DNA of 27,296 nucleotides from a virus. Under the pieces are notes generated by a model. It was not told where the DNA came from. It made no database searches and worked only from the letters and a program-made list of their open reading frames with translations. Made by a program: the position numbers and the translations under genes. Of the stretch, positions 7,488 to 26,588 are shown piece by piece (the first letter of the stretch is position 1; each line of letters starts with the position of its first letter). Where the stretch lies: IMG/VR virus record IMGVR_UViG_3300024262_000198, positions 1 to 27,296 of that record; one strand, 5' to 3'.

Positions 7488-8003
7488 TTATTTGGATGGT
7501 ATTAAACCTTTCTTCTTTAAATCATCTTCAGTAATAATTATAAATTTCATATTTCTTCTCTCACACCATTCTTTAGCGTAAGCCCATTTGTGTAAATTTT
7601 TCTTATACATTCTTAATGAATATTCATAACTCTCTAATAGCTTTAATGTTTGTTTACTTGGTTTATTTGGTGGTAAGGTTTCTGTTTTAGGTTTAATTTC
7701 AATGATAAGTCTATCATAAAATTCAGGATCTCCGTGTTTTATCATTTCTATATAAAAATCTGGATAATATCTATGTATTTCAGTTTGTCCTATATCATTA
7801 GATATATGATATGGTATTTCAATCTCTTCTGAACTCCATCTTCTAACTTTATCATTTAAATCACAGAATCTACAAAATGCAAATTCCCAAGAACTTAGAT
7901 ATTGTATATTTGTTGGATTTCCTAAATATTTATCAACATTTTGTAGTAAATATTTACCTTGATGATATTTTTTCTTATTTCCGTTTGATCTGTTCCTGCC
8001 CAT
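7488..8003 (-). CDS. 4: Head completion protein, T4 gp4-like
   Basis: A 171-residue homologue of T4 gp4 (also called gp50/65), needed to finish filled heads before tail joining. The family pattern is clear: KYHQGKYLLQNVDKYLGNPTNIQYLSSWE..F near the N-terminus, KVRRWSSEEIEIPY, HRYYPDFY, and LIIEIKPKTETLPP. The Glu of SSWE, the Asp of YPDF and the E-K of IEIKPK form a nuclease-like (TnsA/PD-(D/E)XK type) active-site set. Length agrees with T4 gp4 (about 150). Its start overlaps the end of the small gene at 7975-8145 by 29 bases, which suggests translational coupling. Confidence 0.9.
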   Translation of the reverse strand: MGRNRSNGNKKKYHQGKYLLQNVDKYLGNPTNIQYLSSWEFAFCRFCDLNDKVRRWSSEEIEIPYHISNDIGQTEIHRYYPDFYIEMIKHGDPEFYDRLIIEIKPKTETLPPNKPSKQTLKLLESYEYSLRMYKKNLHKWAYAKEWCERRNMKFIIITEDDLKKKGLIPSK

Positions 8004-8145
8004 TTTCTATCTTCTCTAATTTTTCTTTTCTCAGTTTATTCATTTCTTTATCACTTAAAAGTTCATTGATAGACTTCTCATTGTGCATTTTTCTCGCTTC
8101 TTCAACCCTATCAAAGTCCTCTTTATTTAACTTTTTATCAATCAT
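7975..8145 (-). CDS. 56-residue charged protein overlapping gp4 start
   Basis: An ATG-started frame of 56 codons, almost entirely Lys, Glu, Asn, Asp and Leu and predicted helical; no family recognised. It fills the gap between the 90-residue gene and gp4 and overlaps the gp4 start by 29 bases. Near its end it carries LRKEKLEKIEN, a version of the C-terminal peptide shared with eight small genes on the plus strand. The gp4 ATG lies within the codons that follow that peptide. Confidence 0.65.
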   Translation of the reverse strand: MIDKKLNKEDFDRVEEARKMHNEKSINELLSDKEMNKLRKEKLEKIENGQEQIKRK

Positions 8146-11607: not shown

Positions 11608-11910
11608 ATGGCTTTGAAAAGAACATACATAATCAAATTTACAACTCCAAAATATGAAGAATTTTATATTAAGGAATTGGTAAAATATGATCTTGGTTAT
11701 AGATTCCATTCCACAAAAGATGTAGAATTATCAGAAATTTGGAAAAATAAAAAAAGTGTCGATAAAGTAGTAAAACAACTTAATGATGGACTATTTCAAC
11801 CTGGGTTTGATAAAGATATTAATAGCACCTATATATATGAATCTATTGAAATTACACCCATTAAAACATTAAGAGCATTAAAATTAAAAAATATTTCGAA
11901 AAAATATTAA
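11608..11910 (+). CDS. Small protein of unknown function
   Basis: A 100-residue basic protein starting MALKRTYIIKF. It has strands at the start and a Lys-rich end, with no recognised family. The frame extends upstream to 11536, but that would overlap the divergent gp15-like gene; the ATG at 11608 leaves a clean divergent gap. It is the first gene of the plus-strand half and is followed by a terminator at 11991, so it is a one-gene unit. Confidence 0.65.
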   Translation: MALKRTYIIKFTTPKYEEFYIKELVKYDLGYRFHSTKDVELSEIWKNKKSVDKVVKQLNDGLFQPGFDKDINSTYIYESIEITPIKTLRALKLKNISKKY

Positions 11911-12052: not shown

Positions 12053-12265
12053 ATGAAATATTTTAATATATCCGCAAGGGGAATAGGTAAAGTAAACGAT
12101 AAAGGTGAGGTTACTGATTATAAAGTAATATCTTATGATTTTGCTTCACTTTATCCTAATCAAATGAAAGACTTTACCAAAGATGCCAAATTTATGTCAG
12201 AACTTAAACGATTAGAAAGACGAAGAAAATTAGAACAAATAGAAAAAAATTCAGAATCCCAATGA
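12053..12265 (+). CDS. Mini-protein with polymerase motif-A-like segment and C-terminal tag
   Basis: A 70-residue protein. Residues 28-36, YDFASLYPN, closely match motif A of family-B DNA polymerases (DFASLYPS in many viral polymerases), where the Asp binds catalytic metal. Nothing else of a polymerase is present, so it cannot be an active enzyme. It ends with LERRRKLEQIEKN, almost the same peptide as at the end of the capsid fragment at 15674. It starts the run of overlapping plus-strand genes; its TGA overlaps the next ATG (ATGA). It could be a gene remnant, a regulatory fragment or a chance match. Confidence 0.6.
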   Translation: MKYFNISARGIGKVNDKGEVTDYKVISYDFASLYPNQMKDFTKDAKFMSELKRLERRRKLEQIEKNSESQ

Positions 12266-12453
12266 ATATAAAATTTACACAAAACGGCAACTTTGTTGGT
12301 ACACAACACTCTATGATTATAGATGATAAAGAAATATTCTTTGGAGTAGTCACCAATGAAGATGAGGTAAAGCCTGAAATGGTTAAATATCTAAAAGAAC
12401 ATATCGACTATCCAATAGATGATATAAAATTTGTTTGGGGAGGTAGATTATGA
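12262..12453 (+). CDS. Small protein of unknown function
   Basis: A 63-residue acidic protein, coupled to its neighbours by ATGA overlaps at both ends. It has a strand-rich N-terminus and a helix at VKPEMVKYLKEHI. No family recognised. Confidence 0.6.
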   Translation: MNIKFTQNGNFVGTQHSMIIDDKEIFFGVVTNEDEVKPEMVKYLKEHIDYPIDDIKFVWGGRL

Positions 12454-12686
12454 AAAAACGATATAGAAGTATAATAGTTGATGGGAAATCTTATAGTTGG
12501 AGCATAAGAAATGATCTTGATGGTGATGGTGGAAATTTTCTCAAAATATGGGAAACTCACAGTAAAGGTAAAAATATAAAATTTGATGATGTTTGTGATT
12601 TTAGAACAGAAGATGACGATATTATTGAAAATGTCACACCAAGAATGATTAAAGATATAATAGATGAACTCGAAAGAAATAAATAA
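12450..12686 (+). CDS. Small protein of unknown function
   Basis: A 78-residue protein with a strand-rich first half (RYRSIIVDGKSYSWSIRND), a DGDGGN turn that could bind a metal, and a C-terminal helix. It overlaps the previous gene by 4 bases and the next by 23. No family recognised. Confidence 0.6.
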   Translation: MKKRYRSIIVDGKSYSWSIRNDLDGDGGNFLKIWETHSKGKNIKFDDVCDFRTEDDDIIENVTPRMIKDIIDELERNK

Positions 12687-12882
12687 TAGAATAGCCCAGT
12701 TAGAATTGAATATCTTCAATATTAAAATTGAAGTTAATTCTGGAGGTTATTTATCAGGATTTGAAACTCAAAGTTTAATAAATGAAAGAGTTAAGTTAAA
12801 AAAAGAACTTTCACACTTAATGAAAGTGCAAAAACTTAGGGAAGAAAGAAAACAAAAATTAGAACAAATAAATGGAATTTAA
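12664..12882 (+). CDS. Small helical protein with C-terminal tag
   Basis: A 72-residue, Lys/Glu/Leu-rich protein, predicted as two helices joined by a GGYLSG turn. It ends RKQKLEQINGI, one of the clearest copies of the recurring tag. The ATG of the next gene (12872) lies inside the last codons of the tag. The function is unknown. Confidence 0.6.
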   Translation: MNSKEINNRIAQLELNIFNIKIEVNSGGYLSGFETQSLINERVKLKKELSHLMKVQKLREERKQKLEQINGI

Positions 12883-13126
12883 GGTAGGTGATAAAATATA
12901 CTCAAAATTCCATCAACACGGACTATTATTGATGGAGAGTATAAATGATCCATATGTGGTAGTTTTTAGATGCAAACCAATATATTTTGATGGTTCTATA
13001 ATAGATGAATGTGACGAAGAAAATCACACTATGGACTATCTTAAAAAAAATTATGTTCCAGTATCAAAAATTAGAAAAAGAAAACTTGATCAATTAAATA
13101 AAAAATTAGAAGAATATGAGAGATAA
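12872..13126 (+). CDS. Small KOW/Tudor-like protein with tag
   Basis: An 84-residue protein beginning EFKVGDKIYSKFHQHGLLLMES, the pattern of a small SH3-like barrel domain common in phage ORFs. It ends with RKRKLDQLNKKLEEYER, a variant of the recurring tag. The clamp-loader ATG lies within its last codons (11-base overlap), which suggests translational coupling to the replication gene. Confidence 0.6.
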   Translation: MEFKVGDKIYSKFHQHGLLLMESINDPYVVVFRCKPIYFDGSIIDECDEENHTMDYLKKNYVPVSKIRKRKLDQLNKKLEEYER

Positions 13127-14048
13127 CTTATTTTGGTATAAATTCCAACCGAAATCATTAAAAACAATAATTCTATTACCAAGAGTTAGAGAACTTATAA
13201 AAGATGGATTGCCAATGAATGTAATATTTTATAGTGACTCTCCAGGTACAGGTAAATCATCATTAGCAAAGATATTATGTCAGAATGCTGATGATATGGA
13301 GTTTAATTCATCAAAAGAAACCTCAGTAGATATACTTAGAAATGAAGTTGAAAGATTCTGCAAAACTTTAAACCCTTTCAAAAAAGGTTCTGAAAAAATA
13401 GTTTTCTTTGATGAATTTGATGGTGTTTCACCACAATTTCAAAAAGCTTTGAAAGGATTTTCTGATAAATATCAACATGTCAGATTTATACTAACAACTA
13501 ATTATATCGGTCAAGTTGATGATAAAATACTTTCAAGATTTACAAAAGTAGATTTTACACCAAGAAATCAAAAAGAAATAGAATATTTAACTGAAATGTA
13601 TTTTAAATATTTAAAAGCCATTTCAAAACGAATGAAAATTGATTTAACTGATGAAGAAATTCATAAGTTAATTGCAGTTAATTTTCCAGATTTAAGAAGT
13701 GCTGTACAAAAGTTAAATGAAATTTATATCACACAAAATAAAAGTGATTTACAAAATATTACAACTTCAGGGTATAAAGATATTTTTGACTTCTTAACAA
13801 ATGGTAATAATAACGTACAAGAAAATTGGCAATATGTTATGAACAATTTTCAAGATAAACCTTTAGATTTAATGAAAACTTTAGGTAGACCATTCTTCTC
13901 ATACTTTATGGAAAATAATGGCGATATTAAAAAATCAGCAACACTTTTAAATTTACAAAGAAGTTATAACGCTGAATATGAAAACACAATAGATCCTATT
14001 ATACACTTAATTAGTTACGTTACTGATATAAAAGAAATATTAAAATAA
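13116..14048 (+). CDS. 44: Sliding-clamp loader ATPase, T4 gp44-like
   Basis: A 310-residue AAA+ protein; T4 gp44, the large subunit of the loader that places the gp45 clamp on DNA, has 319. It starts with WYKFQPKSLKTIILLPRVREL, as clamp loaders do. Walker A is SPGTGKSS (Lys 47), Walker B is VFFDEFDG (Asp 99, Glu 100), sensor 1 is TTNY (127-130), and ILSRF (SRC-type motif, Arg 141) carries the arginine finger. The C-terminal third is the helical collar domain. The small subunit gp62, adjacent in T4, is not recognised in the next genes. Since T4 late transcription needs the clamp, this gene also links to the gp55-like factor. Confidence 0.9.
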   Translation: MRDNLFWYKFQPKSLKTIILLPRVRELIKDGLPMNVIFYSDSPGTGKSSLAKILCQNADDMEFNSSKETSVDILRNEVERFCKTLNPFKKGSEKIVFFDEFDGVSPQFQKALKGFSDKYQHVRFILTTNYIGQVDDKILSRFTKVDFTPRNQKEIEYLTEMYFKYLKAISKRMKIDLTDEEIHKLIAVNFPDLRSAVQKLNEIYITQNKSDLQNITTSGYKDIFDFLTNGNNNVQENWQYVMNNFQDKPLDLMKTLGRPFFSYFMENNGDIKKSATLLNLQRSYNAEYENTIDPIIHLISYVTDIKEILK

Positions 14049-14395
14049 TGACTTACAAAGAAATTCATATTCATAGTACTCCATATGTAGAATGTGATCT
14101 TAAGTCTGGTAAAATTAACAGAACTGGTAATGTGAATAGATGTAGAATTATTATGGAAGAAAATAATAATATTTTCTTTGATGAAGAAAAATTTTGGGTA
14201 AAAGATAATAAAGGAATTATATCTAGTGATAACGGAAATAAATGGTTTTTTGATAGTGAGAATGATGCGTTAATTTGTGTCGCAAAAGGAAATATATCAA
14301 AAAATGAAAATATCTTAAAAAAAATCAAAGAACATGGTTTTATGAATTTGACAACAGAAGAACAGAATTTTTTTAAAAAACACAATAAAAAATGA
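14048..14395 (+). CDS. Small protein of unknown function
   Basis: A 115-residue protein, with strands in the first 90 residues and a Lys-rich helical end. Its ATG overlaps the clamp-loader stop (TAATG), and its end overlaps the next ATG by 4 bases. By position it might be thought a gp62 clamp-loader small subunit, but it is shorter than T4 gp62 (187 residues) and I see no matching features. Confidence 0.6.
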   Translation: MTYKEIHIHSTPYVECDLKSGKINRTGNVNRCRIIMEENNNIFFDEEKFWVKDNKGIISSDNGNKWFFDSENDALICVAKGNISKNENILKKIKEHGFMNLTTEEQNFFKKHNKK

Positions 14396-14622
14396 TATGG
14401 GGAGTAACAGATAGTGATGGTAAATCATGTAAAATATATGAAAGAATACTAAATCCGATAGGTTTAGAATCTTGGGGTGGTACAAATAAAGGAATTCATA
14501 TATACAATAAAGATAAAACATTTGATATATATTTACCTGAAGATAAAATTAATGATATTGAAAAAATATACACTAAATGGTTGAGAAAAACCAAATTAGA
14601 AAAAATCAACAAGAATGAATGA
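14392..14622 (+). CDS. Small protein with C-terminal tag
   Basis: A 76-residue protein (IWGVTDSDGKSCKIYERI at the start) with strand-rich character and an end of RKTKLEKINKNE, a copy of the recurring tag. The next ATG (14619) overlaps its stop by 4 bases. No family recognised. Confidence 0.6.
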   Translation: MIWGVTDSDGKSCKIYERILNPIGLESWGGTNKGIHIYNKDKTFDIYLPEDKINDIEKIYTKWLRKTKLEKINKNE

Positions 14623-15656
14623 ATTGTTTTATAATTACATCTTATTGTGATACAATAAAAAAAGTAAATGAATTAAAGAAGTGTATTCAAAACTTAAAAC
14701 AATTTAATATTGATATTTTACTACATGCTCACTATCCATTAGATTTAGACATACAAAAAAGCGTCAATTACTACATATATAATTCCACAAATCCAGTTAT
14801 AACAGACGGTTCAAAAACCATAGTTCGATGGAAATGGTATATGACAGCATCTAAATTATTAACAATTCCCAAATTTGATTACTCATATGCTGTTATGAGC
14901 CAATGGAAAGATTCTATAAATTTTCTTAAAGATAAATATGAACAAATATATATCATCAATTATGATACATTCTTTAAAGGTAATATACTATTTAAACATC
15001 AGGAATACTTAAAAAATCACGACATCGTTTTTGAATACTACCCAACATTATGTCCTAGAGATCAATATGGAAATGTAATAGATGAAAAATTAATCTATCT
15101 AACATTCATATCTATAAAAAATACATTTTTTGATACTCTACTTGAAAATCTCTCACTAGAAAAATATATGAAGTCAGAAGATACAATGTTAGAAACATAT
15201 ATAATGGAGTTAATAGTGGAATATGAATCCAAATTTAAAATCAAAAAAAGTTGTGATTCAAATATACCATCAGCAAAATTTGATGTTGTTAATGATTATG
15301 ATATTTTTACAACTATAGAATTTATAGATGATTTTGATTCTCTAAAAAAAGTTGAAAATGGTGAAGATTTATACTGGGTATTTGGTGGCACTAATATAGA
15401 ATTTGAAAAATTTGAAATATTAATTTTTGAAATATTAAAACCTTTAAATGAAATAGTTATAGATATAGATGGTGAAATTATAAAAGCAAATAACATAACA
15501 GAAAAATATTATTCGTTTATAACAAATTATACCATGGACGAAATAAACAATATTATGGATAAAAATAAACTATCTATAAAAATTGATGGAGATATCGTGA
15601 GTCAAGATATTATAAACAGAATGAAAACATATGCAATATCACCAAAATTCGAATAA
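14619..15656 (+). CDS. Glycosyltransferase-like protein
   Basis: A 345-residue protein. The opening FIITSYCDTIKKVNELKKCIQNL, ILLHAHYPL and YYIYNSTNPVI, followed by YEQIYIINYDTFF (residues ~108-120), fits a GT-A-type glycosyltransferase of the kind found in large viruses, with the NYDT in the place of the metal-binding acidic motif. The C-terminal 120 residues are an extra acidic strand-rich domain. Its substrate cannot be told; phage enzymes of this sort modify virion proteins, phage DNA or host glycans. The neighbours are replication genes and small ORFs. Confidence 0.6.
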   Translation: MNCFIITSYCDTIKKVNELKKCIQNLKQFNIDILLHAHYPLDLDIQKSVNYYIYNSTNPVITDGSKTIVRWKWYMTASKLLTIPKFDYSYAVMSQWKDSINFLKDKYEQIYIINYDTFFKGNILFKHQEYLKNHDIVFEYYPTLCPRDQYGNVIDEKLIYLTFISIKNTFFDTLLENLSLEKYMKSEDTMLETYIMELIVEYESKFKIKKSCDSNIPSAKFDVVNDYDIFTTIEFIDDFDSLKKVENGEDLYWVFGGTNIEFEKFEILIFEILKPLNEIVIDIDGEIIKANNITEKYYSFITNYTMDEINNIMDKNKLSIKIDGDIVSQDIINRMKTYAISPKFE

Positions 15657-15673
15657 AAACAATTCACAAATAA

Positions 15674-16162
15674 TTGAAAATAGATAAAAAGAAAGCATTA
15701 GAAAAATGGAGTAGTGTAATAGAATCATTAAAAAATAATGAAAAAACGGGTTGGTTTGAACAGTATTCACAAAATTTTGGTGGAAATATTCCCATTTATT
15801 CAGGTGAAACAACATCATTATCAGCAAACACATTTCCATCGTTACTTCCAATGGCTATGAAAATTTCTGCTCAAACAATAGGAATGGGTGGAACAAAAAA
15901 ATCAAAGGCACAACAATTACGAGAAAACAGACTAAATAAACTTAGACAAATTGATGGTAAAGATCCGAATATTGTGTTGCCTGATGATGAAAAGGTGCCT
16001 GGGCTAGTTTCAGTTCAACCTTTGTCCGCACCTACAGGACAATTATTATATGTGGATTTCAAATATAGTGACATCAAAAAAGAGAGAAGAGATAAACTTG
16101 AGCAAATAGAAAAGAACCAGAAAATTCTCGAAATATTGGAAATGCTTAAAAATAATATATAG
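15674..16162 (+). CDS. Truncated capsid-protein N-terminus with insert and tag
   Basis: A 162-residue reading frame clearly related to the first ~130 residues of the window's own major capsid protein: DKKKALEKWSSVIESL matches DKQKAQKKWSPVLDSL, LLPMAMKISAQTIG matches LLPVSMKIAAQTIG, and LLYVDFKYSD matches LLFVDFKYDN. Between the last two lies an insert of about 40 residues containing RLNKLRQIDG, and the frame ends with RRDKLEQIEKN plus 14 residues, so the tag-like peptide appears twice. No ATG is available at the homologous start: a stop codon is followed by TTG, which would be the initiator. It may be a decayed duplicate or an expressed decoy/regulatory fragment; the open frame favours expression or recent origin. 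Confidence 0.7.
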   Translation: MKIDKKKALEKWSSVIESLKNNEKTGWFEQYSQNFGGNIPIYSGETTSLSANTFPSLLPMAMKISAQTIGMGGTKKSKAQQLRENRLNKLRQIDGKDPNIVLPDDEKVPGLVSVQPLSAPTGQLLYVDFKYSDIKKERRDKLEQIEKNQKILEILEMLKNNI

Positions 16163-16182
16163 AAAAAAATAATTCAATATAA

Positions 16183-16461
16183 ATGAATGAAATTAAAAAT
16201 TTAAAGGAAAAACAAATTAATGACTTTATCTATGATGTAGAATTAAATAATGCATCAGTATCAGAAATAAAAAAAGGTCTTAAGTATATTTTAGGTGAAG
16301 AACCAGGAGTAAAATTTAACTACACACAAGAGTTAAAGATCAACGAAACCACAGGTAAAAAAGAAAGACAAGAAAGTGAATTAGAATCAATTGAAATCTA
16401 TTACACTTACATAGGCGAAAATGATCAACAAACTTTTGGAACCTGCAAATATATCATCTAA
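16183..16461 (+). CDS. Small protein of unknown function
   Basis: A 92-residue charged protein, with a helix at the start (NEIKNLKEKQINDFIYDVEL) and strands at the end (IEIYYTYIGE...FGTCKYII). An AT-rich motif (AATAATATATAG) lies about 20 bases upstream. It precedes RNase H with a 16-base gap. No family recognised. Confidence 0.6.
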   Translation: MNEIKNLKEKQINDFIYDVELNNASVSEIKKGLKYILGEEPGVKFNYTQELKINETTGKKERQESELESIEIYYTYIGENDQQTFGTCKYII

Positions 16462-16477
16462 AAAATAAGACTTTAAT

Positions 16478-17452
16478 ATGCTTAAAATAAATTTAGTACT
16501 TGACGGTAACTATCTACTGTATAAGTCTGTATTCATCCTTGATAGACTAAAAACACTTTATGGTGACTTAGAAACTCTACTTCTACGAGATTATAATAAC
16601 ATATCTAACGTATTTCAATATGATATGATATATTTTGTATCTGACTCAAGACAAAGTTGGAGAAAAACACTTTATCCTGAATATAAAGATGGTAGGAAAA
16701 AGGATTCAAAAATTGATTGGGAATTTGTTTTTGATACATATGAATCATTTAAAGAAAATATCACAACAAGAAATAATTGTTTAGTATATACTATTGACCC
16801 CTTCGAAGGTGATGATATAATGGCACACATTATAAATGAAACTAATAAAGATGGATATTCTAATTTTATCATTAGTAATGATGGTGATATGCACCAATTT
16901 TTAAAATATGATATTGCTGAAAATTATATCAACATAATGTACAATCACAAATTTAATGATGAAAAATTATTCACACCTAAAAACTATAATATTTTTTTCA
17001 ATCATATTGAAAAAAATTCTGAACAAGATATTTTTGATTTAAATAATGATTCAGAATTTGTTGAACATTTTGAAAGATTGAAAGCAAGATGTAATGTAAT
17101 TGAAGTCAATAAAGAAGAATCATTATTCAAAAAAATCGTTACTGGTGATAAAGGTGATAATATTCTTTCAGTTGTTAAATTTGATAAAACGATGAGAGGT
17201 ATTGGTAAAGCAGGTGGGGAAACAGTTTGGAATATGTTTAAAGAAAGATATCCAAACGAAATAAACTTTGATTCTGATGAATTTATTGAAAATTTAGTAG
17301 AAATACTTTCAATTTATAAAAAAAATAAAGATGAGGATTATAAAGAAAAAATAAGAAAAAATATTATTTTTTCAAGAAAATTAACAAGATTGGAATCTAA
17401 ATATTTACCAAAAGGTATGTTAGAAACACTCAAATCCAGCATCATTATTTAA
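16478..17452 (+). CDS. rnh: RNase H / 5' nuclease, T4 Rnh-like
   Basis: A 324-residue FEN/5'-nuclease family protein; T4 RNase H, which removes RNA primers from lagging-strand fragments, has 305. Metal ligands are in the expected places: Asp 9 (LVLDGNYL), Asp 56 (FVSDSRQSWR), Glu 110-Asp 112-Asp 113 (EGDDIM), Asp 135-Asp 137 (SNDGDMHQF), and Asp 224-Asp 227 (VTGDKGDNI). YPEYKDGRKK gives the conserved basic patch. The helix-hairpin-helix follows at GIGKAGGETVW. It belongs with the clamp loader to a replication set; no SD sequence precedes the ATG. Confidence 0.92.
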   Translation: MLKINLVLDGNYLLYKSVFILDRLKTLYGDLETLLLRDYNNISNVFQYDMIYFVSDSRQSWRKTLYPEYKDGRKKDSKIDWEFVFDTYESFKENITTRNNCLVYTIDPFEGDDIMAHIINETNKDGYSNFIISNDGDMHQFLKYDIAENYINIMYNHKFNDEKLFTPKNYNIFFNHIEKNSEQDIFDLNNDSEFVEHFERLKARCNVIEVNKEESLFKKIVTGDKGDNILSVVKFDKTMRGIGKAGGETVWNMFKERYPNEINFDSDEFIENLVEILSIYKKNKDEDYKEKIRKNIIFSRKLTRLESKYLPKGMLETLKSSIII

Positions 17453-17479
17453 ATATATAGAAAAATGAACTGATAGAAA

Positions 17480-18625
17480 ATGTACACTTTTGAATCTAGA
17501 ATTGATTATGAAACCATTATAGTGGCGGTTAAATATGAAGGCACTATTATTGAAGAACGAAAATTTTCAAGCGTAACATTCACACAAGACAGCGCAATAG
17601 AAACTTTACAATTTGATGCAGAACATTTTGGGTTTTATGTGAATGGACAATCATATCCAGCATCAATAATTACACCTGAACCCGACCCACCATCTAATCC
17701 ACTTCAAGAAAATATAGATGGTGTAACTAGTTCATTGACAGAATTAAATGAATCATTAAGTCCAGATATGTTTAATATAGATATCGAATCTCAATTTATG
17801 TCAGATGATGAAGTACTCAAAAAAATGATTATTTCTCAAAGTAGTAGCATACCTGAGGAAAGAATTGGTGATGACACTGCGGACCAAATCGTTGCGGCTT
17901 ATCCAAAAAATCATCCCACCAGAACTTTCATAAAAGATAAAAAGAAAGAAGTAAAAACTGCAGCAAAAGAATTAGGGTTTAAAGGTAAAGAATTAACAGA
18001 CGGAATCACACAATTAACAATAGAAACTATAGCCTCATTTGTCACAATAGGTTCTTCAGCAGTCATTATGCCACCTGGGGCAGGGGTACCAACAGCATTT
18101 TCGGCTGTTCAAGGACTTTTTGCAAGTTTAAAAGCATTTCAAACAAAATTAAATCAACTACAGCCAGTTTTAGAACCATTGAAATATGTTGAAATGCTTG
18201 TACCAGAAGGTAGTTCAATAATATCAAGTATTAATACTGCGTTGGGTGCAGTTAATGGTATTGTATCTGGTGTGGCAGGAGTAACTGCGCCAATAAGTAC
18301 AGTACAAAGCTTATTAGGTAGCACATCTGTACCTGGTGTTAATGCACCTCCAGGTCCTATTGATTCTCCAGTTTTAGTGTGGGGGAACAATAATAATCAA
18401 GCTGTTGCTGCTGGAACCGCAGTATGGATAGGTTCTAATCCAAAAGGTGGTGATTGGAAATATAAATATTGGTGGACGGCAGATAATCCTAACGATCCTG
18501 TCATAAATTCAAACGCAAAAGCAGTAACAGTTTATCCAACAAAAACAACTAAATATAGTGTTGGAGTATCAAATGAAGATGGTTCTGGTACACAATGGGG
18601 AAGTTGGACAGTAGTTGTAGCATAA
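17480..18625 (+). CDS. Probable virion protein with C-terminal Ig-like domain
   Basis: A 381-residue protein of unrecognised family. The N-terminal ~65 residues are strand-rich, followed by a Pro-rich linker. The middle (about 165-300) is Ala/Gly/Val-rich and hydrophobic, without clear charged breaks, and the last 80 residues look like a beta-sandwich domain (VLVWGNNNNQ...TVYPTKTTKYSVGVSN...WTVVVA). T4-like phages carry such domains on head decoration, baseplate or fibre proteins, so a virion role is plausible but unproven. LNE occurs near residue 90. It is followed by an AT-rich hairpin. Confidence 0.6.
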   Translation: MYTFESRIDYETIIVAVKYEGTIIEERKFSSVTFTQDSAIETLQFDAEHFGFYVNGQSYPASIITPEPDPPSNPLQENIDGVTSSLTELNESLSPDMFNIDIESQFMSDDEVLKKMIISQSSSIPEERIGDDTADQIVAAYPKNHPTRTFIKDKKKEVKTAAKELGFKGKELTDGITQLTIETIASFVTIGSSAVIMPPGAGVPTAFSAVQGLFASLKAFQTKLNQLQPVLEPLKYVEMLVPEGSSIISSINTALGAVNGIVSGVAGVTAPISTVQSLLGSTSVPGVNAPPGPIDSPVLVWGNNNNQAVAAGTAVWIGSNPKGGDWKYKYWWTADNPNDPVINSNAKAVTVYPTKTTKYSVGVSNEDGSGTQWGSWTVVVA

Positions 18626-18635
18626 TATTTTTCAA

Positions 18636-18667
18636 TTTTACTTTTTAATATATAATAAAAAGTAAAA
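18636..18667 (+). promoter_or_regulatory. Promoter-like motif held in a 12-bp AT hairpin
   Basis: TTTTACTTTTTA and TAAAAAGTAAAA form a 12-bp inverted repeat with loop ATATATAA. The motif TTTTTAATATATA spans stem and loop, 20 bases before the ATG at 18676. It may be a combined terminator for the upstream gene and late promoter for the next. Confidence 0.5.
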
Positions 18668-18675
18668 ATCTACAC

Positions 18676-19734
18676 ATGAAAAACATACAATCAAGACAAG
18701 AATTTCTTTTAATAAAAGAGCAACAACTAAACGAAGGTTTAATGGGTTTCCTAAAAGGAATATTTAAAAGTATTGGTAAACTTTACGACAAAATAAAAGG
18801 CGGTAAAGAATTAAAAGCTAAAATCGAAGAGTATAAAGAAAAAATTAATAAAATTTTTCAAGGATTAACAAGTGCAGAACAAACAAAAACGGCTGTAAAT
18901 AAAAATGTTCAAGCGGCAGTCGAATCTAAACTTTATGAAGAAGAAATGGCGGGTGCGGATGTTTCCACAGCGCAAGCAAAAGGTGAAGATGTTAAACCTG
19001 AGCCAATAGATCAAGAACAAACTGCTCAAGGTGGTGAAGAAAATTTAGACAAAACTCAATTAAAAGGAAAAATTAACAATTCTAAAGAACACCTAAAACA
19101 ATTACAAAAAAGTTTTAGTAATGAAATTGATGTATTAAAGAGAAGATTTACAGGTAAAGATGGTAAAGTACCTAAAAAATTAGAGTATTCATTAGCACTT
19201 GCAAAAAATCAATTAAGTGACTATATCTATGAAAAATGGGAAGAACACTACACTCAAATAGGTGATAAGAAAACTATCGCAAATATTCAAAAACAAAGAG
19301 CGATAGTTGCAAAAGAAATGAAAACAAACACCGAAGCGTTACAAAAATTAATTGAAGGTGGAGATAAAGAAAAAATGACATTTGAAGTTGATAGAAAATA
19401 TAAATACACAGATTCAGAAGGTAATGTAAAAACTATCACAGTTAAAGAAGTTGATGAAAATGGTGATGTAACAAAGGCTGTAACTAGAAAAGGTAAAGAA
19501 ATTAACCCATATACTGATAATATTGGTGAATATTATCAAGAAGGCGAAACATACGAATACACTAATAAAGAAGGCAAACAGATTGAAGTAACAATAACAC
19601 AAATTTTAGATGGTGGTAATATACAAGTCAAAAGTAATGGAGCAACTTTTGTACCAATCACAAAAAACTTAGGTTATAAAGTAGAGAAAAACCCACAAAC
19701 ACAAGCACAACCAAAACAACAAGCACCGAAATAA
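18676..19734 (+). CDS. Putative internal head protein with targeting-like N-terminus
   Basis: A 352-residue Lys/Glu/Gln-rich protein. It starts MKNIQSRQEFLLIKEQQLNE, which resembles the T4 capsid-targeting sequence (MKTYQEFIAE) that directs internal proteins into the prohead and is then cut by gp21; LNE at 18-20 followed by Gly fits the [LI]xE cut. The body has coiled coil (about 25-75 and 130-220), then two SH3/KOW-like strand segments (KYKYTDSEGNVKTITV; YEYTNKEGKQIEVTI) and a Gln/Pro-rich end. The next gene's ATG overlaps its stop. The role is inferred from the N-terminus only. Confidence 0.65.
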   Translation: MKNIQSRQEFLLIKEQQLNEGLMGFLKGIFKSIGKLYDKIKGGKELKAKIEEYKEKINKIFQGLTSAEQTKTAVNKNVQAAVESKLYEEEMAGADVSTAQAKGEDVKPEPIDQEQTAQGGEENLDKTQLKGKINNSKEHLKQLQKSFSNEIDVLKRRFTGKDGKVPKKLEYSLALAKNQLSDYIYEKWEEHYTQIGDKKTIANIQKQRAIVAKEMKTNTEALQKLIEGGDKEKMTFEVDRKYKYTDSEGNVKTITVKEVDENGDVTKAVTRKGKEINPYTDNIGEYYQEGETYEYTNKEGKQIEVTITQILDGGNIQVKSNGATFVPITKNLGYKVEKNPQTQAQPKQQAPK

Positions 19735-20579
19735 TGTTATATAAATATTTAGAATTTATAAATGAAAGTTTTTATGATGATTTTAAAAGTAAATATTTTA
19801 AACTCTTTAAAGAATCTGATGAAGATATCAAAAATGAATTAGGTACATTATTTAAAAGAATAGATGATGAAACTGATTATCTAAAAGTAGTCAATACTTT
19901 TGACGATTTTCTATCTTCTAATCAAAACTCATTAAACACTAAAATTGATAATAGTGAAGGTCAAGATTCTATTAACAAATTACTTAGTGATAATTTAAAG
20001 GCAATATATTTCGCACTTAAATCTGTTCAAATAAAATTAGACGATAAAGATTTTGTTAATATTTTTGAACGAGCACAAGATAAAAATCTTAAAAATTTAA
20101 TGGACATGAAAAGAGATAAATTCTCCGATGCTGTTCCAACATATGTGAAAGATTATATGATACCTCAAATTGAAAAATCAGCAGGTATTGTAAAAACACA
20201 AGAAACTAAAGTCAATGAAGCTGACCAGGTGGCTCAACCAAATGTGGCTCAACCAACTCAAGTTCAGGCTCAACCCACAACACAAAATGAACCAGAAGAT
20301 AAAACTAAACAATTAGAAACATATAAAGAAAAATCAAAAGAATGGTTCAATTATATCTATGGTATGGTTTGGAATAAACTTAAACCAATTAAAAACAAAC
20401 TGAACACAAATAAACAGGTTAGTACACATATCGATCAATTAACCAAATTGATGAAAAATTCAACCAATGAAGAAGCTAAAAAACAACTTCTTAAAAAAAT
20501 ATCATCCTTATCAAAAGAAGGACTAGATAAATTAGGAGAATTTCTAAATTTAAATAAAGAAGAACTGGGAGAATTTTAA
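19734..20579 (+). CDS. Putative internal head protein
   Basis: A 281-residue helical, charged protein starting MLYKYLEFINESFYDDF; INE at residues 9-11 fits the prohead protease consensus and the start resembles a capsid-targeting sequence. A Val/Ala/Gln/Pro-rich linker lies near 165-190, followed by a helical C-terminal domain. It overlaps the previous gene by one base and ends one base before the next ATG, so three such genes form a tight operon. No family recognised. Confidence 0.65.
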   Translation: MLYKYLEFINESFYDDFKSKYFKLFKESDEDIKNELGTLFKRIDDETDYLKVVNTFDDFLSSNQNSLNTKIDNSEGQDSINKLLSDNLKAIYFALKSVQIKLDDKDFVNIFERAQDKNLKNLMDMKRDKFSDAVPTYVKDYMIPQIEKSAGIVKTQETKVNEADQVAQPNVAQPTQVQAQPTTQNEPEDKTKQLETYKEKSKEWFNYIYGMVWNKLKPIKNKLNTNKQVSTHIDQLTKLMKNSTNEEAKKQLLKKISSLSKEGLDKLGEFLNLNKEELGEF

Positions 20580-20580
20580 T

Positions 20581-20976
20581 ATGAAACATTTAAACGAATT
20601 TAATATTTTCAAAAACAAAGAAAAAGAACTGGGTGATAAAGTAGTTTCACGGATATTAGAAATAACCAAAGAAGAAAATATAACTATTCAACATACAGGA
20701 GGATTTCAAATAGAAATAGATGATAAAATATATTCCTTCTCTAGTTATAGTTCTATTGTTGGTAGTGATTGTCAATTAGGTGTGTATAATAAATCACAAA
20801 AAGTGACAACAGCAAAATATGGTGAAATAATATCTGGTGATTCAGTATCAAGATATAAATTTTCAAAAAAACTTTGGAATAAATTAGAAAAATTATATAA
20901 AGAACAACAAACAAATCAAAACGATTTAGAAGAACTATCTGATGTAAATAGAGCCGCAAATAAATATAATTTATAA
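20581..20976 (+). CDS. Small protein with targeting-like N-terminus
   Basis: A 131-residue protein beginning MKHLNEFNIFKNKEKE, with LNE at residues 4-6. The middle is strand-rich (GGFQIEIDDKIYSFSSYSS) and the end is a charged helix. It is third in the operon begun at 18676. No family recognised. The position of LNE so near the start makes cleavage less certain than for its neighbours. Confidence 0.6.
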   Translation: MKHLNEFNIFKNKEKELGDKVVSRILEITKEENITIQHTGGFQIEIDDKIYSFSSYSSIVGSDCQLGVYNKSQKVTTAKYGEIISGDSVSRYKFSKKLWNKLEKLYKEQQTNQNDLEELSDVNRAANKYNL

Positions 20977-21006
20977 TCTTTTTTACAATTTTCCACTATA
21001 TTTTAT

Positions 21007-21375
21007 ATGGAAAAATTTGTCTGTTTTAAACAACATGAAAATTTCACATTAGGTGAAATATATAACTGTTATGAAGTTATTCAAGGTTTAGTTTATATGC
21101 CTTATATTCCAATGGAAAGTATCAGTATTGTAAGCAATAATACATTCTCACCAACGAACACGATTAAAAGTCGGTACTCTAAAAAAATGATTAATAATAA
21201 TAATTTTGCTACAATAAAAACAACAGGCACAAAATCAGAATTGAAAACAGAAGGATATAATGTTTATTGGTGTGATGGATTTAAATATTTTGATGTTGAA
21301 AAATTTAATAAGCATTTTAAAAGTTTAAAAAAATTAAGATTAGAAAAATTACAACAAATCAATGGCACAATTTAA
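21007..21375 (+). CDS. Small SH3-like protein with C-terminal tag
   Basis: A 122-residue protein; FVCFKQHENFTLGEIYNCYEV suggests a small barrel domain. It ends LRLEKLQQINGTI, a clear copy of the recurring tag, and the next ATG (21362) lies within the tag codons. The function is unknown. Confidence 0.6.
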   Translation: MEKFVCFKQHENFTLGEIYNCYEVIQGLVYMPYIPMESISIVSNNTFSPTNTIKSRYSKKMINNNNFATIKTTGTKSELKTEGYNVYWCDGFKYFDVEKFNKHFKSLKKLRLEKLQQINGTI

Positions 21376-21655
21376 ATATGATGATTATGTTCGAAATTAT
21401 GAAATAGACTATTTTAATGATCTAACAGCAAATGAAACAATATTATTATCAAAAAAGTTAAGAATCTCTGAACAACACATTAAAAAATGTTTTTTTAAAT
21501 CAGGTGGGGAATGGTGTTGCATTGTTGGTGGTATGACTTTTAATATTAAAGATTGTGATTGGTATCCGATTATGAAAAAACATCTTGACAAAGAATTTGA
21601 AAGATTCATAAGAAAAGAAAAATTAAAACAAATAGATGATAGATATTGTAGGTAA
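21362..21655 (+). CDS. Small protein with C-terminal tag
   Basis: A 97-residue protein. A helix (ANETILLSKKLRISEQHIKKC) is followed by a Cys/Trp-containing strand segment (GGEWCCIVGGMTF) and an end of IRKEKLKQIDDRYCR, a variant of the tag. The frame of the next gene opens inside this tag. No family recognised. Confidence 0.6.
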   Translation: MAQFKYDDYVRNYEIDYFNDLTANETILLSKKLRISEQHIKKCFFKSGGEWCCIVGGMTFNIKDCDWYPIMKKHLDKEFERFIRKEKLKQIDDRYCR

Positions 21656-21839
21656 TATGGAAGGTATTCCAATATATGAAGATCCTCTAATGGAAGACAA
21701 CAAAATATTACAAGGTAGAAAACACGGGGTAGAAGGAATCATATATATTATTGCCAATCCAAAAACAGCACAACTTATCTATAAAACATTTCTTATAAAA
21801 TCAAGAAAAGAAAAGCTTGATTATCTTAATAATCTCTAA
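21636..21839 (+). CDS. Small protein with C-terminal tag
   Basis: 67 residues from the ATG at 21636, or 60 from the ATG at 21657 (MEGIPIYEDPLME), which begins just after the upstream stop and looks the more natural protein start. It ends SRKEKLDYLNNL, the most divergent copy of the tag. No family recognised. Confidence 0.55.
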   Translation: MIDIVGNMEGIPIYEDPLMEDNKILQGRKHGVEGIIYIIANPKTAQLIYKTFLIKSRKEKLDYLNNL

Positions 21840-22297: not shown

Positions 22298-22612
22298 ATG
22301 AAAATTAGAAGATTTAACGAAAATGTTGAAGAAAAACATATAGATATTGATGAAGTGTGTCCAGAATGTGGAGCAATTGCAATGTATCTCATTGATCACC
22401 ATCAATTATATATACCTGAAAAATGGGAGGAACACCAAATAAATATTGATAATGAATTATACGCAGATATAAAATGTGATAATTGTGGATATAAAGAATC
22501 AATAATAGGTGATATTAAATGGAGAACTAAAAACATAAAAAAAAGAAAAGACTATATAGAACTTTATAAAAAAGGAATAAATCCTGTAGAAATACAAAAA
22601 TATAATTTATAA
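22298..22612 (+). CDS. Small zinc-ribbon protein
   Basis: A 104-residue protein with CPECG (about residue 21) and CDNCG (about 63) forming a likely four-Cys zinc ribbon, and His residues between them (IDHHQ). The start MKIRRFNENVEE is a weak targeting-like leader (FNE at 6-8). It lies between two other genes with such leaders. The function is unknown. Confidence 0.65.
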   Translation: MKIRRFNENVEEKHIDIDEVCPECGAIAMYLIDHHQLYIPEKWEEHQINIDNELYADIKCDNCGYKESIIGDIKWRTKNIKKRKDYIELYKKGINPVEIQKYNL

Positions 22613-23955: not shown

Positions 23956-24031
23956 CTAGGTGCGATCCATGTGTGTGAGGTTCCTTCGTTTGGAGCGAAG
24001 ATTATTGCGAGTTCGACTCTCGTCACCTAGA
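23956..24031 (+). tRNA. tRNA-Pro (TGG), first copy
   Basis: Acceptor CTAGGTG/CACCTAG, anticodon arm CTTCG-TTTGGAG-CGAAG, T-arm GCGAG-TTCGACT-CTCGT, discriminator A as expected for Pro. The D-loop lacks the usual GG pair (ATGTGTGTGA). The 3' CCA is not encoded; CAA follows. Confidence 0.8.
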
Positions 24032-24077
24032 CAAAAGAATTAATGGTTCATTGACGTATTGAAATTTAAAGAGTATC

Positions 24078-24096
24078 GGGTAGATAAAATCTACCC
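24078..24096 (+). repeat. Hairpin between tRNA genes
   Basis: GGGTAGAT, loop AAA, ATCTACCC: an 8-bp stem with no T run, five bases before the next tRNA. It may be a processing signal. Confidence 0.5.
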
Positions 24097-24100
24097 ATAT

Positions 24101-24175
24101 CAGGGTGTCATGCAGTTGGTTATACTTCCTTGCCTTGGACGCAAGTGTTCGTGAGTTCGAATCTCACCACCCTGA
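24101..24175 (+). tRNA. tRNA-Pro (TGG), second copy
   Basis: Acceptor CAGGGTG/CACCCTG, anticodon arm CTTGC-CTTGGAC-GCAAG, T-arm GTGAG-TTCGAAT-CTCAC, discriminator A. The D-loop has GG (AGTTGGTT) and the variable loop has 5 bases, so this is the regular Pro copy. Confidence 0.9.
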
Positions 24176-24180
24176 CAAAT

Positions 24181-24262
24181 GCCGACTTCGCATAGTGGCT
24201 ATTGCACTACACTTGTAATGTAGCACCGAAAGGTATCGTGGGTTCGAGTCCCACAGTCGGCT
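24181..24262 (+). tRNA. tRNA-Thr (TGT) with long variable arm
   Basis: Acceptor GCCGACT/AGTCGGC, D-stem GCA/TGC, anticodon arm CTACA-CTTGTAA-TGTAG, T-arm GTGGG/CCCAC. The variable region has 14 bases and contains ACC-GAAA-GGT, a GNRA-capped hairpin, unusual for Thr (normally 4-5 bases). Confidence 0.85.
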
Positions 24263-24306
24263 CAATTTTTTATCTACGTGGAAACCGAAAACATTTTTTG
24301 GCTTTT

Positions 24307-24320
24307 ATTTTTAATATATA
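24307..24320 (+). promoter_or_regulatory. Candidate late promoter of first HNH gene
   Basis: ATTTTTAATATATA lies 16 bases before the ATG at 24337, so the endonuclease can be transcribed independently of the tRNAs. Confidence 0.45.
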
Positions 24321-24336
24321 CAATAAAAAAGATATT

Positions 24337-25041
24337 ATGAAAAAATGGACAAAAAAAGAGGAAGATATAGTTTTAAAGTTATTAAAAGATGGTAATTCTT
24401 ATTTAGAAATTTCTGATAAACTAAATAGAACTAAACGTAGCATTAAAGAAAAAGTAAATAAATTGGGATATAATTCGAAGTCTTTCTCAATAAAAAAACA
24501 AAAATGTTTAAATTGTGATAATGAAATTGATATTTCCACATTAAATAAGAACGAAAGAAAATTTTGTTCAAATTCTTGTTCAGCATCTTTTAACAATAAG
24601 TTAAGAATAAAAAAAGTTAAAGAAATAAAAAAATGTCTATGTTGTGATAAGGAGATTAAAATCAATTGGCATAATAATATTTTTTGTAATAAGAAATGTC
24701 ATAATGATTATGTATATAGAGAGTATATTAAAAATTGGAAAAATGATAAAGAAAATGGTAAAAGAGGTGAATATGGAGTATCAAATTATATTCGTAGATA
24801 TTTATTTGAAAAATATAACAATAGTTGCACAAAATGTAATTGGAGTGAAGTTAATTTATTCACTAACAAAATACCGTTAGAAGTTGAACATATTGATGGA
24901 AACTCAAATAATAATAAAGAAGAAAATTTAACTCTATTGTGTCCAAATTGCCACTCTTTAACAAAAACATACAAAGGTGGAAATAAAGGAAATGGTAGAC
25001 ATAACAGAATGAAAAGATATTATGAAGGAAAATCATATTAA
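24337..25041 (+). CDS. HNH homing endonuclease with Myb/SANT-like N-terminus
   Basis: A 234-residue protein. Residues 1-45 (WTKKEEDIVLKLLKDGNSYLEISDKLNRTKRSIKEKVNKLG) form a SANT/Myb-like helix-turn-helix. Two Cys pairs follow (CLNCDNE..CSNSC and CLCCDKE..CNKKC), and the C-terminal HNH nuclease has a structural CxxC, LEVEHIDGNSNN (catalytic His) and ENLTLLCPNCH. The open frame continues upstream to a TTG inside tRNA-Thr, but the ATG at 24337 sits properly after the promoter motif. It is inserted between two related tRNA-Thr genes, as expected for a homing gene. Confidence 0.88.
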   Translation: MKKWTKKEEDIVLKLLKDGNSYLEISDKLNRTKRSIKEKVNKLGYNSKSFSIKKQKCLNCDNEIDISTLNKNERKFCSNSCSASFNNKLRIKKVKEIKKCLCCDKEIKINWHNNIFCNKKCHNDYVYREYIKNWKNDKENGKRGEYGVSNYIRRYLFEKYNNSCTKCNWSEVNLFTNKIPLEVEHIDGNSNNNKEENLTLLCPNCHSLTKTYKGGNKGNGRHNRMKRYYEGKSY

Positions 25042-25051
25042 AACAAAAAAT

Positions 25052-25134
25052 GCCTTCTTCGCATAGTGGTCGATTGCAATGGATTTGTAACCCATCTCCG
25101 AAAGGACCCGTCAGTTCGAATCTGACAGAAGGCT
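25052..25134 (+). tRNA. tRNA-Thr (TGT), second copy, long variable arm
   Basis: Acceptor GCCTTCT/AGAAGGC, anticodon loop TTTGTAA on stem ATGGA/CCCAT (one A-C mismatch), T-arm GTCAG/CTGAC. The variable region has 14 bases with TCC-GAAA-GGA. It shares CTTCGCATAGTGG with the copy at 24181, and the variable-arm pair has swapped from A-T to T-A. Confidence 0.8.
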
Positions 25135-25144
25135 CAATATAAAT

Positions 25145-25225
25145 GCACCAGTAGTCACAATGTTCTTCTAAAGCATTATAGTGTAATTGGATCTGAAAAT
25201 GTGGGTTCGACTCCCACCTGGTGTT
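25145..25225 (+). tRNA. Odd tRNA, anticodon TCT (Arg), nearly no D-arm
   Basis: Acceptor GCACCAG/CTGGTGT, T-arm GTGGG-TTCGACT-CCCAC, anticodon loop CTTCTAA on stem ATGTT/AGCAT. Only 8 bases separate acceptor and anticodon stem, so no D-arm can form, while 24 bases lie between anticodon arm and T-arm. That segment (AGTGTAATTGGAT) itself resembles a D-loop. Discriminator T is unusual for Arg. Confidence 0.6.
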
Positions 25226-25229
25226 CAAT

Positions 25230-25308
25230 GGATTAGTAACCAGTTCGGTCTTCGAAACCGTTATCTGTAATGGAGTTGGAAATGTGGGTTCGACCCCCAC
25301 CTAATCCT
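25230..25308 (+). tRNA. Odd tRNA, anticodon TCG (Arg), nearly no D-arm
   Basis: Acceptor GGATTAG/CTAATCC, T-arm GTGGG-TTCGACC-CCCAC, anticodon loop CTTCGAA on TCGGT/ACCGT (outer T-T mismatch). It has the same plan as the tRNA at 25145: 8 bases before the anticodon stem, 22 bases after it, beginning TAT and ending GGAAAT. Discriminator T. Confidence 0.6.
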
Positions 25309-25310
25309 CA

Positions 25311-25334
25311 ATAGTATTATGGTATTAATACTAT
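25311..25334 (+). repeat. 9-bp hairpin after odd Arg tRNAs
   Basis: ATAGTATTA, loop TGGTAT, TAATACTAT. No T run follows; it is possibly a processing or stability element. Confidence 0.5.
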
Positions 25335-25342
25335 ATTAAGAA

Positions 25343-25432
25343 ATATCTAGGTGCACCCGTGGAGGGTACCGAAATCTTAGGATAAAATCTTACAATCTGG
25401 TATAAAAAGTTCGCTACTTAAAAGTCAGATAT
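25343..25432 (+). ncRNA. Candidate structured RNA, tRNA-sized
   Basis: A 90-base non-coding stretch closed by ATATCT/AGATAT, with an inner hairpin GGT-GC-ACCC-GTGGA-GGGT-ACC and a T-loop-like TTCGCTA with a weak stem. It lies where another tRNA would be expected but does not fold as one. It could be a decayed tRNA or another phage RNA. Confidence 0.35.
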
Positions 25433-25453
25433 ATTTTTTAATGAATTTTTTGC

Positions 25454-25484
25454 GAACCATCAAAAAAGGGGGTTCATTTTTTTT
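25454..25484 (+). terminator. Possible terminator before second HNH gene
   Basis: GAACC, 12-base loop, GGTTC, then A and eight T. The stem is short, so it is moderate at best; the candidate promoter of the next gene starts in its T run. Confidence 0.5.
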
Positions 25485-25494
25485 ATATATAATA
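25481..25494 (+). promoter_or_regulatory. Candidate late promoter of second HNH gene
   Basis: TTTTATATATAATA lies 14 bases before the ATG at 25509. Confidence 0.4.
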
Positions 25495-25508
25495 ATAAAA
25501 AATGTTTT

Positions 25509-26174
25509 ATGGAAAATAGATATGAAGAAAACTACTTTACTGGTGTAGTTAAAAATAGTAAAAATATATCAGATATAGCAATAAAGTTAAAATTGAATAC
25601 TGGACATGGTAATAGGCAAACTATCATTAAATATATTAAATTATACAAAATAAATACAGAACATTTTGAATATGTTTCTATGGATAATTCAGCAAATTTT
25701 AATAAACGAGACTTATCTGACATATTAACAGAAAATTCAACATACCCTACTACACATTTAAAAAAGAGATTATATAAAGAAGGATTAAAAGAAAGAATAT
25801 GTGAGTTATGTAAACAGGACGAAAATTGGAAAGGAAAAAAGATGAGTTTAATTCTTGACCATATCAACGGTATAAATGATGATAATAGATTAGAGAATTT
25901 AAGAATTGTTTGTCCTAACTGTAACGCAACATTAGATACACACTGTAGCAAGGGAAACAATTTTAAACCACAAAAAATTGTAAAACATTGCAAATGTGGT
26001 AAAAAAATAAACAGTTCTTCTATAATGTGTGTAGAGTGTAATGCTATATATCAAAGAAAAGTTAAAAGACCCGAACTAAATGTATTAATGGAAGATATTA
26101 AGACTTTAGGATATAGAGGTACAGGTAGAAAATATGGAGTAAGTGGTAATGCCATAAAAAAATGGATAAAATAA
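25509..26174 (+). CDS. HNH endonuclease inserted in tRNA array
   Basis: A 221-residue protein. The HNH core is CELCKQDENWKG, LILDHINGINDDNR (catalytic His in DHING), LENLRIVCPNCN. A further zinc knuckle follows (HCKCGKKI..CVECN), and the C-terminus (TLGYRGTGRKYGVSGNAIKKWIK) is a helix-turn-helix that probably binds DNA. The N-terminal part (ISDIAIKLKLNTGHGNRQTIIKYIK) also looks like a DNA-binding helix pair. Its stop codon directly abuts the first base of tRNA-Gly at 26175. It is not closely similar to the first HNH gene apart from the nuclease core. Confidence 0.88.
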   Translation: MENRYEENYFTGVVKNSKNISDIAIKLKLNTGHGNRQTIIKYIKLYKINTEHFEYVSMDNSANFNKRDLSDILTENSTYPTTHLKKRLYKEGLKERICELCKQDENWKGKKMSLILDHINGINDDNRLENLRIVCPNCNATLDTHCSKGNNFKPQKIVKHCKCGKKINSSSIMCVECNAIYQRKVKRPELNVLMEDIKTLGYRGTGRKYGVSGNAIKKWIK

Positions 26175-26257
26175 GCGGATATCGTATAATGGAGTGTAAA
26201 AACAAATTATGTCGTCCTTCCAAGTCGAAGATGAGAGTTCGATTCTCTCTATCCGCT
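26175..26257 (+). tRNA. tRNA-Gly (TCC) with enlarged D-arm
   Basis: Acceptor GCGGATA/TATCCGC, T-arm GAGAG-TTCGATT-CTCTC, anticodon loop CTTCCAA on TCGTC/GTCGA (one T-T mismatch), discriminator T as expected for Gly. The start TATCGTATAATGG is typical of tRNA-Gly, but the D region has about 10 extra bases and can fold as ATAAT/ATTAT with a 15-base loop. Confidence 0.8.
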
Positions 26258-26262
26258 CACAA

Positions 26263-26336: not shown

Positions 26337-26338
26337 CA

Positions 26339-26382: not shown

Positions 26383-26388
26383 CTCTAT

Positions 26389-26467: not shown

Positions 26468-26475
26468 GAGTTTTT

Positions 26476-26502: not shown

Positions 26503-26508
26503 AATTAT

Positions 26509-26583: not shown

Positions 26584-26588
26584 CAATT

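Follow-up and report, generated by a model that had tools for sequence, protein, structure and literature searches.

Why should a phage carry a series of small genes of otherwise unrelated sequence whose products end in nearly the same ten residues? The question is raised by a 27,296-nucleotide stretch of viral DNA (IMG/VR record IMGVR_UViG_3300024262_000198, positions 1 to 27,296; here the window, or G000), in which ten small genes encode the peptide RxxKLxx[IL] at or near the C-terminus. The window represents part of a huge phage of the T4 type, in the clade that includes LR756501, and this phage's own genome is known from these 27 kb only. Nine of the ten genes had been named in the original prediction, made from the window alone; each carries the peptide reported for it, and codons vary among copies encoding identical residues. 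Two features go beyond that prediction, i.e., the peptide varies by phage lineage, and several of the tagged genes represent pieces of the capsid protein or DNA polymerase that the phage itself encodes. The peptide, present on dozens of small megaphage proteins, has the appearance of a hitherto undescribed address label or docking tag for proteins.

The shared peptide in the window

The main alternative raised at the outset was a chance likeness of helices rich in Lys, Leu, and Glu. Among 42 non-overlapping open reading frames (ORFs) of the window, a strict pattern was matched at the C-terminus by six and a loose regular expression by eight, versus 0.00 and 0.40, respectively, after each 25-residue tail had been shuffled 20 times. 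The gene at 12664 is not among the 42, since the greedy ORF filter removes overlapping ORFs. The motif is carried by none of the large window genes, i.e., those encoding the major capsid protein (MCP), portal, prohead protease, clamp loader, and exonuclease, as had been claimed. Together with the control phages and interior windows described below, the tail shuffles exclude chance.

All but one of the tagged genes are on the plus strand. The product of the 11608–11910 locus (100 amino acids), the gene added to the original nine, terminates in LRALKLKNISKKY; the orthologues G001_12659, G010_22965, and G016_21830 keep the same end, and an orthologue is also present in L308. The gene at 12664–12882 (72 amino acids) has the terminal sequence RKQKLEQINGI (12847–12879) and two relatives in L308, with the termini ERKQKLKKLEQIYNEN and ERKQKLKKLENAE. 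It is followed by 12872–13126 (84 amino acids; tag RKRKLDQLNKK at 13073–13105), whose L307/L308 orthologue has 92% nucleotide identity and an unaltered tag, and by 14392–14622 (76 amino acids), which terminates in RKTKLEKINKNE (tag at 14584–14616). The product of 21362–21655 (97 amino acids) carries RKEKLKQIDD at 21611–21640. On the minus strand, the gene at 7975–8145 (56 amino acids) carries RKEKLEKIEN, from 8031 down to 8002, and the motif is kept in its L042 and G008 orthologues. The remaining four genes are derived from the polymerase or the MCP and are described with those proteins. An extra tagged gene of L308, a close relative (4061–4306; terminal RKKKLDEIERNK) has no counterpart in the window. 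Scans of viral contigs recovered one close relative with 12872 and 12053 as queries, and none with 15674, 21007, and 21362.

Lineage-specific tags in related megaphages

The MCP of the window shares 60% identity with that of LR756501 (735 kb; W01), 50–53% with those of LR756502 (W02), LR745206 (W03), and LR756504 (W04), and up to 78% with those of IMG/VR contigs, which are given G numbers; LR756500 is designated W08. The largest phage genomes of one survey have been placed in the Mahaphage clade, and Bacteroidetes hosts were predicted for those above 634 kb (Al-Shayeb et al. 2020; PMC7162821). We searched the last 20 residues of proteins for over-represented three-residue gapped patterns, counting paralogues once and presupposing no motif. 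ORFs were called mechanically in pieces of 20–50 kb, with genes at piece ends lost or cut, and coverage was partial for W02, W04, W08, T4, phiKZ, phage G, and Lak-C1. A C-terminal motif emerged at z = 16–40 in six megaphage genomes or fragments: W01 (40; DP.YG.E.W), W04 (27; R...I..L), W03 (23; R..K...IL), G001 (18; A..YNL and R..KL), G012 (16.5; E..KMGL), and W02 (16; R...L..LGI); W08 reached 10. When windows of 20 residues were taken from the interior of these proteins, z values were 6–9, except for zinc-finger-like C..C patterns in W01 (14.8). The same C-terminal scan of T4, phiKZ, and phage G gave no more than 7 once paralogues had been merged.

The corresponding tags are DPYGEExW in LR756501, R[DEN]xK[IL]xx[IL][LG] in LR745206 and LR756502, RKxxIxxLL in LR756504, RKxKLxKIN and KYNL in G001, the closest contig, KMGLL in G012, and NADDFGF[FL]DN in W08. 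Counted with patterns defined on the same genomes (the unbiased part being the three-residue scan and its controls), DPYGEE lies near the end of 38 W01 ORFs, R..K[ILV]..[ILVM][LG] near the end of 85 W03 ORFs, K[ML]GL plus one residue at the terminus of 43 G012 ORFs, and KYNL at the terminus of 22 G001 ORFs. A cross-genome search indicated that every tag is seen in its own lineage and is essentially absent from the others. A second W01 tag, KRTK[LM][IM]DxML, occurs on 22 ORFs, with tandem arrays at 215–223, 274–278, and 672–675 kb, and resembles the window's tag in form. The second tail of the window's lineage ends two further plus-strand genes, 20581–20976 (131 amino acids; terminal ANKYNL) and 22298–22612 (104 amino acids; terminal QKYNL). 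In W02, W03, W04, G012, G001, G000, and W08, almost all tag matches fall within 25 residues of the C-terminus. DPYGEExW is also found within long proteins (four copies in W01_154863_158564) and directly after N-terminal targeting sequences.

The original prediction had offered localization, degradation, and docking as possible functions, which remain the right family of ideas, with docking or addressing now favored over degradation. As a degradation tag, the peptide would hand early proteins of short lifetime to a protease of the host or the phage; lineage differences would follow from the proteases or their adaptors. The small size and presumably transient nature of the proteins are compatible with such a role, as is the placement of several tags (KMGLL, KYNL, LGI) at the exact carboxyl end. 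However, tags of related phages are wholly unlike (DPYGEExW versus RxxKLxxI) although housekeeping proteases are conserved, and the lineage specificity argues against a degron of the ClpXP/SsrA type in particular. Moreover, DPYGEE is often internal or N-terminal, and in many genes 0–12 further residues lie beyond the tag. We regard degradation as an unlikely function.

Selection on the peptide and unrelated bodies

The codon usage of the tags, their flanks, and the orthologues all indicate that selection acts on the peptide and not on a DNA cassette; that the peptide and not the DNA is kept had been supposed in the original prediction from the differing codons. At the fixed tag positions of LR745206, codons match the usage of the genome; for Arg, AGA, AGG, CGT, and CGA are used 55, 11, 7, and 4 times in the tag, and at frequencies of 0.77, 0.12, 0.06, and 0.04 in the genome. 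DNA identity in the regions flanking the tags is 0.30–0.40, near background (0.30–0.35 in LR745206), and third codon positions vary. We then considered 48 orthologue pairs from genomes and contigs bearing RxxK[IL]-type tags, matched by body alone (median body identity 43%). The tag is present in both members of 28 pairs by the strict pattern and of 38 by the relaxed one; for small ORFs overall, the corresponding rates are 13.7% and 22%. The other suggestion made at the outset, that the peptide is the trace of a mobile coding cassette, is unsupported, and we consider it scarcely credible that a cassette, or a promoter or ribosome-binding site read as protein, underlies it. An excess of CCT and TAC codons in LR756501 would fit such an origin, as would the LR745206 tags that end in ATATGA and so overlap the next start. 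Against it, no similarity extends past the tag into the flanks, the LR745206 codons are those of the genome, and orthologues keep the amino acids. The reading as a ribosome-binding site or promoter was ruled out by the LR745206 codon usage and by the finding that tags are not tied to a downstream start. TTA is present in all 22 KYNL tails of G001, and DNA-level copying or constraint is possible for these and for the W01 tags.

After removal of the last 30 residues, the bodies were clustered. The tagged ORFs of LR745206 (83/83), LR756502 (43/43), and the window (8/8) all have independent bodies, and nearly all do in G001 (25/25 and 22/21 for its two tags) and LR756501 (36/35 and 22/21). Some paralogues are present in G012 (47 ORFs, 33 bodies), W04 (34, 25), and W08 (12, 4). 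In most genomes the tagged genes tend to adjoin one another. Phage G was entertained as a parallel and rejected: its 26 ORFs were striking before paralogues were merged, and then proved to be one paralogous family. These approximately 26 tandem paralogues occupy 352560–371001 (the gp444–gp474 region) and have a strongly kept C-terminal segment, YWKENDRYLAKIL. Their collapse from 26 ORFs into one cluster serves as a positive control, indicating that the test is able to detect ordinary paralogy. The tandem arrays and the phage G family are what would lead one to view the tagged proteins as a single, very divergent family in which the C-terminus is the sole visibly conserved part. This is very improbable given the 83 unrelated bodies of LR745206, and given that the bodies include pieces of MCP, portal, protease, and sheath along with leucine-rich repeats (LRR) and transmembrane proteins. 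Searches of the tagged bodies against Pfam, PHROGs, and PADLOC yielded almost no functions except for the virion pieces, LRR, and a few others.

Three of the tagged window genes are derived from the MCP, the full-length and untagged gene for which lies at 36–1841 on the minus strand (PHROG 138, major head protein; E value 2.8e-22). The product of 15674–16162 (162 amino acids) corresponds, with gaps, to the N-terminal part of the MCP (residues 5–131). It has two copies of the motif, an internal RLNKLRQIDG (15929–15958) within an insert and RRDKLEQIEKN at 16085–16117, and has tagged orthologues in G006, G010, G016, G001, and G002. The product of 21007–21375 (122 amino acids; Pfam Gp23, E value 2e-6) consists of MCP residues 545–600 followed by RLEKLQQING at 21337–21366; a structural model made without an alignment predicts a C-terminal helix at low confidence (pLDDT 52). 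That of 21636–21839 (67 amino acids; E value 7.6e-7 to a single MCP sequence) consists of residues 512–549 followed by RKEKLDYLNN at 21804–21833.

Across the genomes, 36 small ORFs are pieces of virion proteins, namely MCP (23), portal (6), prohead protease (6), and tail sheath (1). Tags are borne by thirteen of the 36, compared with 10.7% of the remaining small ORFs (odds ratio 4.7, p=6e-5), in a test that pools genomes of unequal tag rate and scores 15674 and G001_10147 as untagged, their motif being slightly further in or off-pattern. The C-terminal MCP piece has the tail RLEKLQQIN in the window, DPYGEEDW in W01_145891, and RKRKIENIF in W03_255010. That one piece bears differing tags is the strongest single indication that unlike tag sequences share one role. 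A recurrent small gene of several lineages, mostly untagged, comprises MCP residues ~32–86, including a likely prohead-protease site, LNE (L066:1486-1959, L089:1360-1680, W01_730457, G019_12611, W03_93266, and W02_80294). Mini-MCPs that retain the N- and C-terminal parts and have lost the middle are encoded by W01_276342, W01_565330, and G012_147588. The order of portal or capsid pieces is permuted with respect to the parent gene in L066:1956-2210 and in the window (21007 and 21636).

The polymerase-derived gene of the window, 12053–12265 (70 amino acids; tag RRRKLEQIEKN at 12218–12250), contains motif A of B-family DNA polymerases, YDFASLYP, and weakly matches Pfam DNA_pol_B_2, with an E value of 0.008. 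The same YDFASLYP is present in the clade's own polymerase, W01_90179, to which the similarity is weak (phmmer E value 0.012). In the L308 orthologue the tag is kept as RQRKLDEIEKN, and the bodies differ with a nonsynonymous proportion (pN) of 0.125 versus a synonymous proportion (pS) of 0.419. The motif-A ORF of the clade has approximately 500 amino acids and ends ~100 residues past motif A (W01_90179_91693, W03_232803_234344, G019_102659_104173), so the polymerase looks split. Elsewhere in the window, 13 tRNA genes with repeated anticodons (Pro-TGG three times; Thr-TGT, Arg-TCT, and Val-TAC twice each) occupy 23956–27251, and two HNH endonuclease-like genes (24202 and 25509) sit among them.

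Comparison with known signals and a proposed role

Searches of the open-access literature found no published description of a C-terminal tag in huge phages. A known phage likeness is the capsid targeting sequence (CTS) of the T4 internal proteins IPI–IPIII, likewise a short terminal peptide common to small phage proteins of divergent sequence, a feature seen in all 83 bodies of LR745206. Ten N-terminal residues are enough to send a protein into the T4 head (PMC9026906). The CTS is N-terminal and is cleaved by gp21, whereas the clade tags do not share this N-terminal position, being mainly C-terminal, and vary by lineage. The clade has CTS-like N-termini of its own (KxFxxF..E), on 111 of 984 proteins in W01 versus 26 after shuffling and on 91 of 914 in W03 versus 27.5. 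Examples such as MKKFKNFILE and MLYKYLEFINE are found in W01–W04, G012, G001, and others, and in the window at 18676, 19734, 20581, and 21883, among other sites. A CTS-like start on more than 10% of W01 proteins suggests huge loads of internal head proteins.

This heavy use of N-terminal targeting would favor the tag as a second cargo signal that loads proteins into the capsid, and in W01 N-terminal or internal DPYGEE is indeed commoner on CTS proteins (16/49 versus 89/898, p=3e-5). The RxxK[IL] tags of W02–W04 have the opposite association, with a CTS on 2 of 136 tagged versus 179 of 1676 untagged proteins, which is significant alone only in W03 (p=0.01). The rarity of the CTS on these tagged proteins indicates that the tag is not simply a route to the capsid, and we consider a cargo signal a little less likely even than degradation. 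Basic tags such as the window's look like an address of their own, and DPYGEE may differ from them in function.

PEP-CTERM, GlyGly-CTERM, and MYXO-CTERM are C-terminal sorting tags read by a dedicated machine (PMC1569441, PMC3237569, PMC11980579). As in those systems, a short C-terminal region is shared by many otherwise unrelated proteins of one genome. There, however, the signature is followed by a transmembrane segment and a basic cluster, an arrangement not seen here; among 320 tagged ORF counts, a single one has a hydrophobic segment in its last 45 residues (at most one per set). A constant short address motif on fast-changing bodies also characterizes the RXLR-type effectors of oomycetes, which are N-terminal, eukaryotic, and secreted. 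The palindromic elements of Rickettsia place one peptide in many unrelated genes by means of repeated DNA, and differ in this respect from the clade tags with their diverse codons and unrelated flanks.

Association of the tags with one another, which would assemble the proteins without any separate receptor, would suit their amphipathic pattern and the helix in the low-confidence 21007 model. DPYGEExW and KYNL are unlike oligomerizing helices, and the strictly kept R and K suggest a specific partner; we find self-association improbable. The explanation that we favor, with a probability of roughly 0.55, is that the peptide serves as an address or docking tag at the C-terminus and is read by one putative partner per lineage. 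The partner, most likely encoded by the phage, would recognize the short terminal peptide, in the window a basic amphipathic segment of about ten residues, RxxKLxxI[NDE]. Through the tag, small accessory proteins, which form a large set that changes fast, would be linked to one common machine or place. We propose that partner and tag diverge between lineages, which would give each lineage its own tag, and gene turnover would supply new genes bearing the current one. Some bodies would be cut from resident genes (MCP, portal, prohead protease, tail sheath, and DNA polymerase), which suggests binders, decoys, or dominant-negative pieces.

Several observations weigh against this explanation. The contig G003 (159 kb; MCP 77%) has no tag in the C-terminal scan, and neither has Lak-C1, where z was 7.3 versus a null of 6.8–6.9 with TAG read as Gln and paralogues unmerged. 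DPYGEE is internal or N-terminal in 63 of 101 LR756501 copies, unlike the other tags. The presence of two tags together in LR756501 and in G001 makes one tag per phage too simple a rule. The LR756501 excess of CCT and TAC departs from genome usage, so that part of the spread in that genome may have been by copying of DNA, and some tagged bodies could be distant paralogues missed by blastp. Finally, the partner is putative, and it is by inference that we arrive at the docking mechanism and the accessory or arms-race role.

The scale, lineage switching, and fast gene turnover resemble an arms-race repertoire in which the address stays constant and the bodies change. Capsid proteins can trigger host defenses, as with Lit/Gol and CapRel (PMC12926258, PMC9712102), and host sensors of phage proteins are known (PMC9712102). 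Several MCP pieces of the clade span MCP residues ~90–148, aligned to T4 gp23 up to ~120; their decoy activity is putative. Pieces of virion proteins could be decoys for host sensors, or dominant-negatives against rivals. In a more far-reaching version, which we offer only tentatively, the tag would be a barcode for each lineage, and a co-evolving phage receptor would read it and so direct 40 to 100 proteins, which make up several per cent of the proteome, to one place. Effectors would then arise continually by fusion of the tag to odd bodies, including virion pieces that act as host-sensor decoys or as poisons of rival phages.

In the largest phages, function is known for a minority of the genes. 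A shared tag groups many unknown proteins into one functional class per phage, and the peptide provides a handle for finding their common partner. Among accessory genes, pieces of virion proteins emerge as a recurring type. If the peptide is an address signal, it would be, to our knowledge, the first C-terminal targeting system on the scale of a proteome to be described in a phage, with a code that depends on the lineage.

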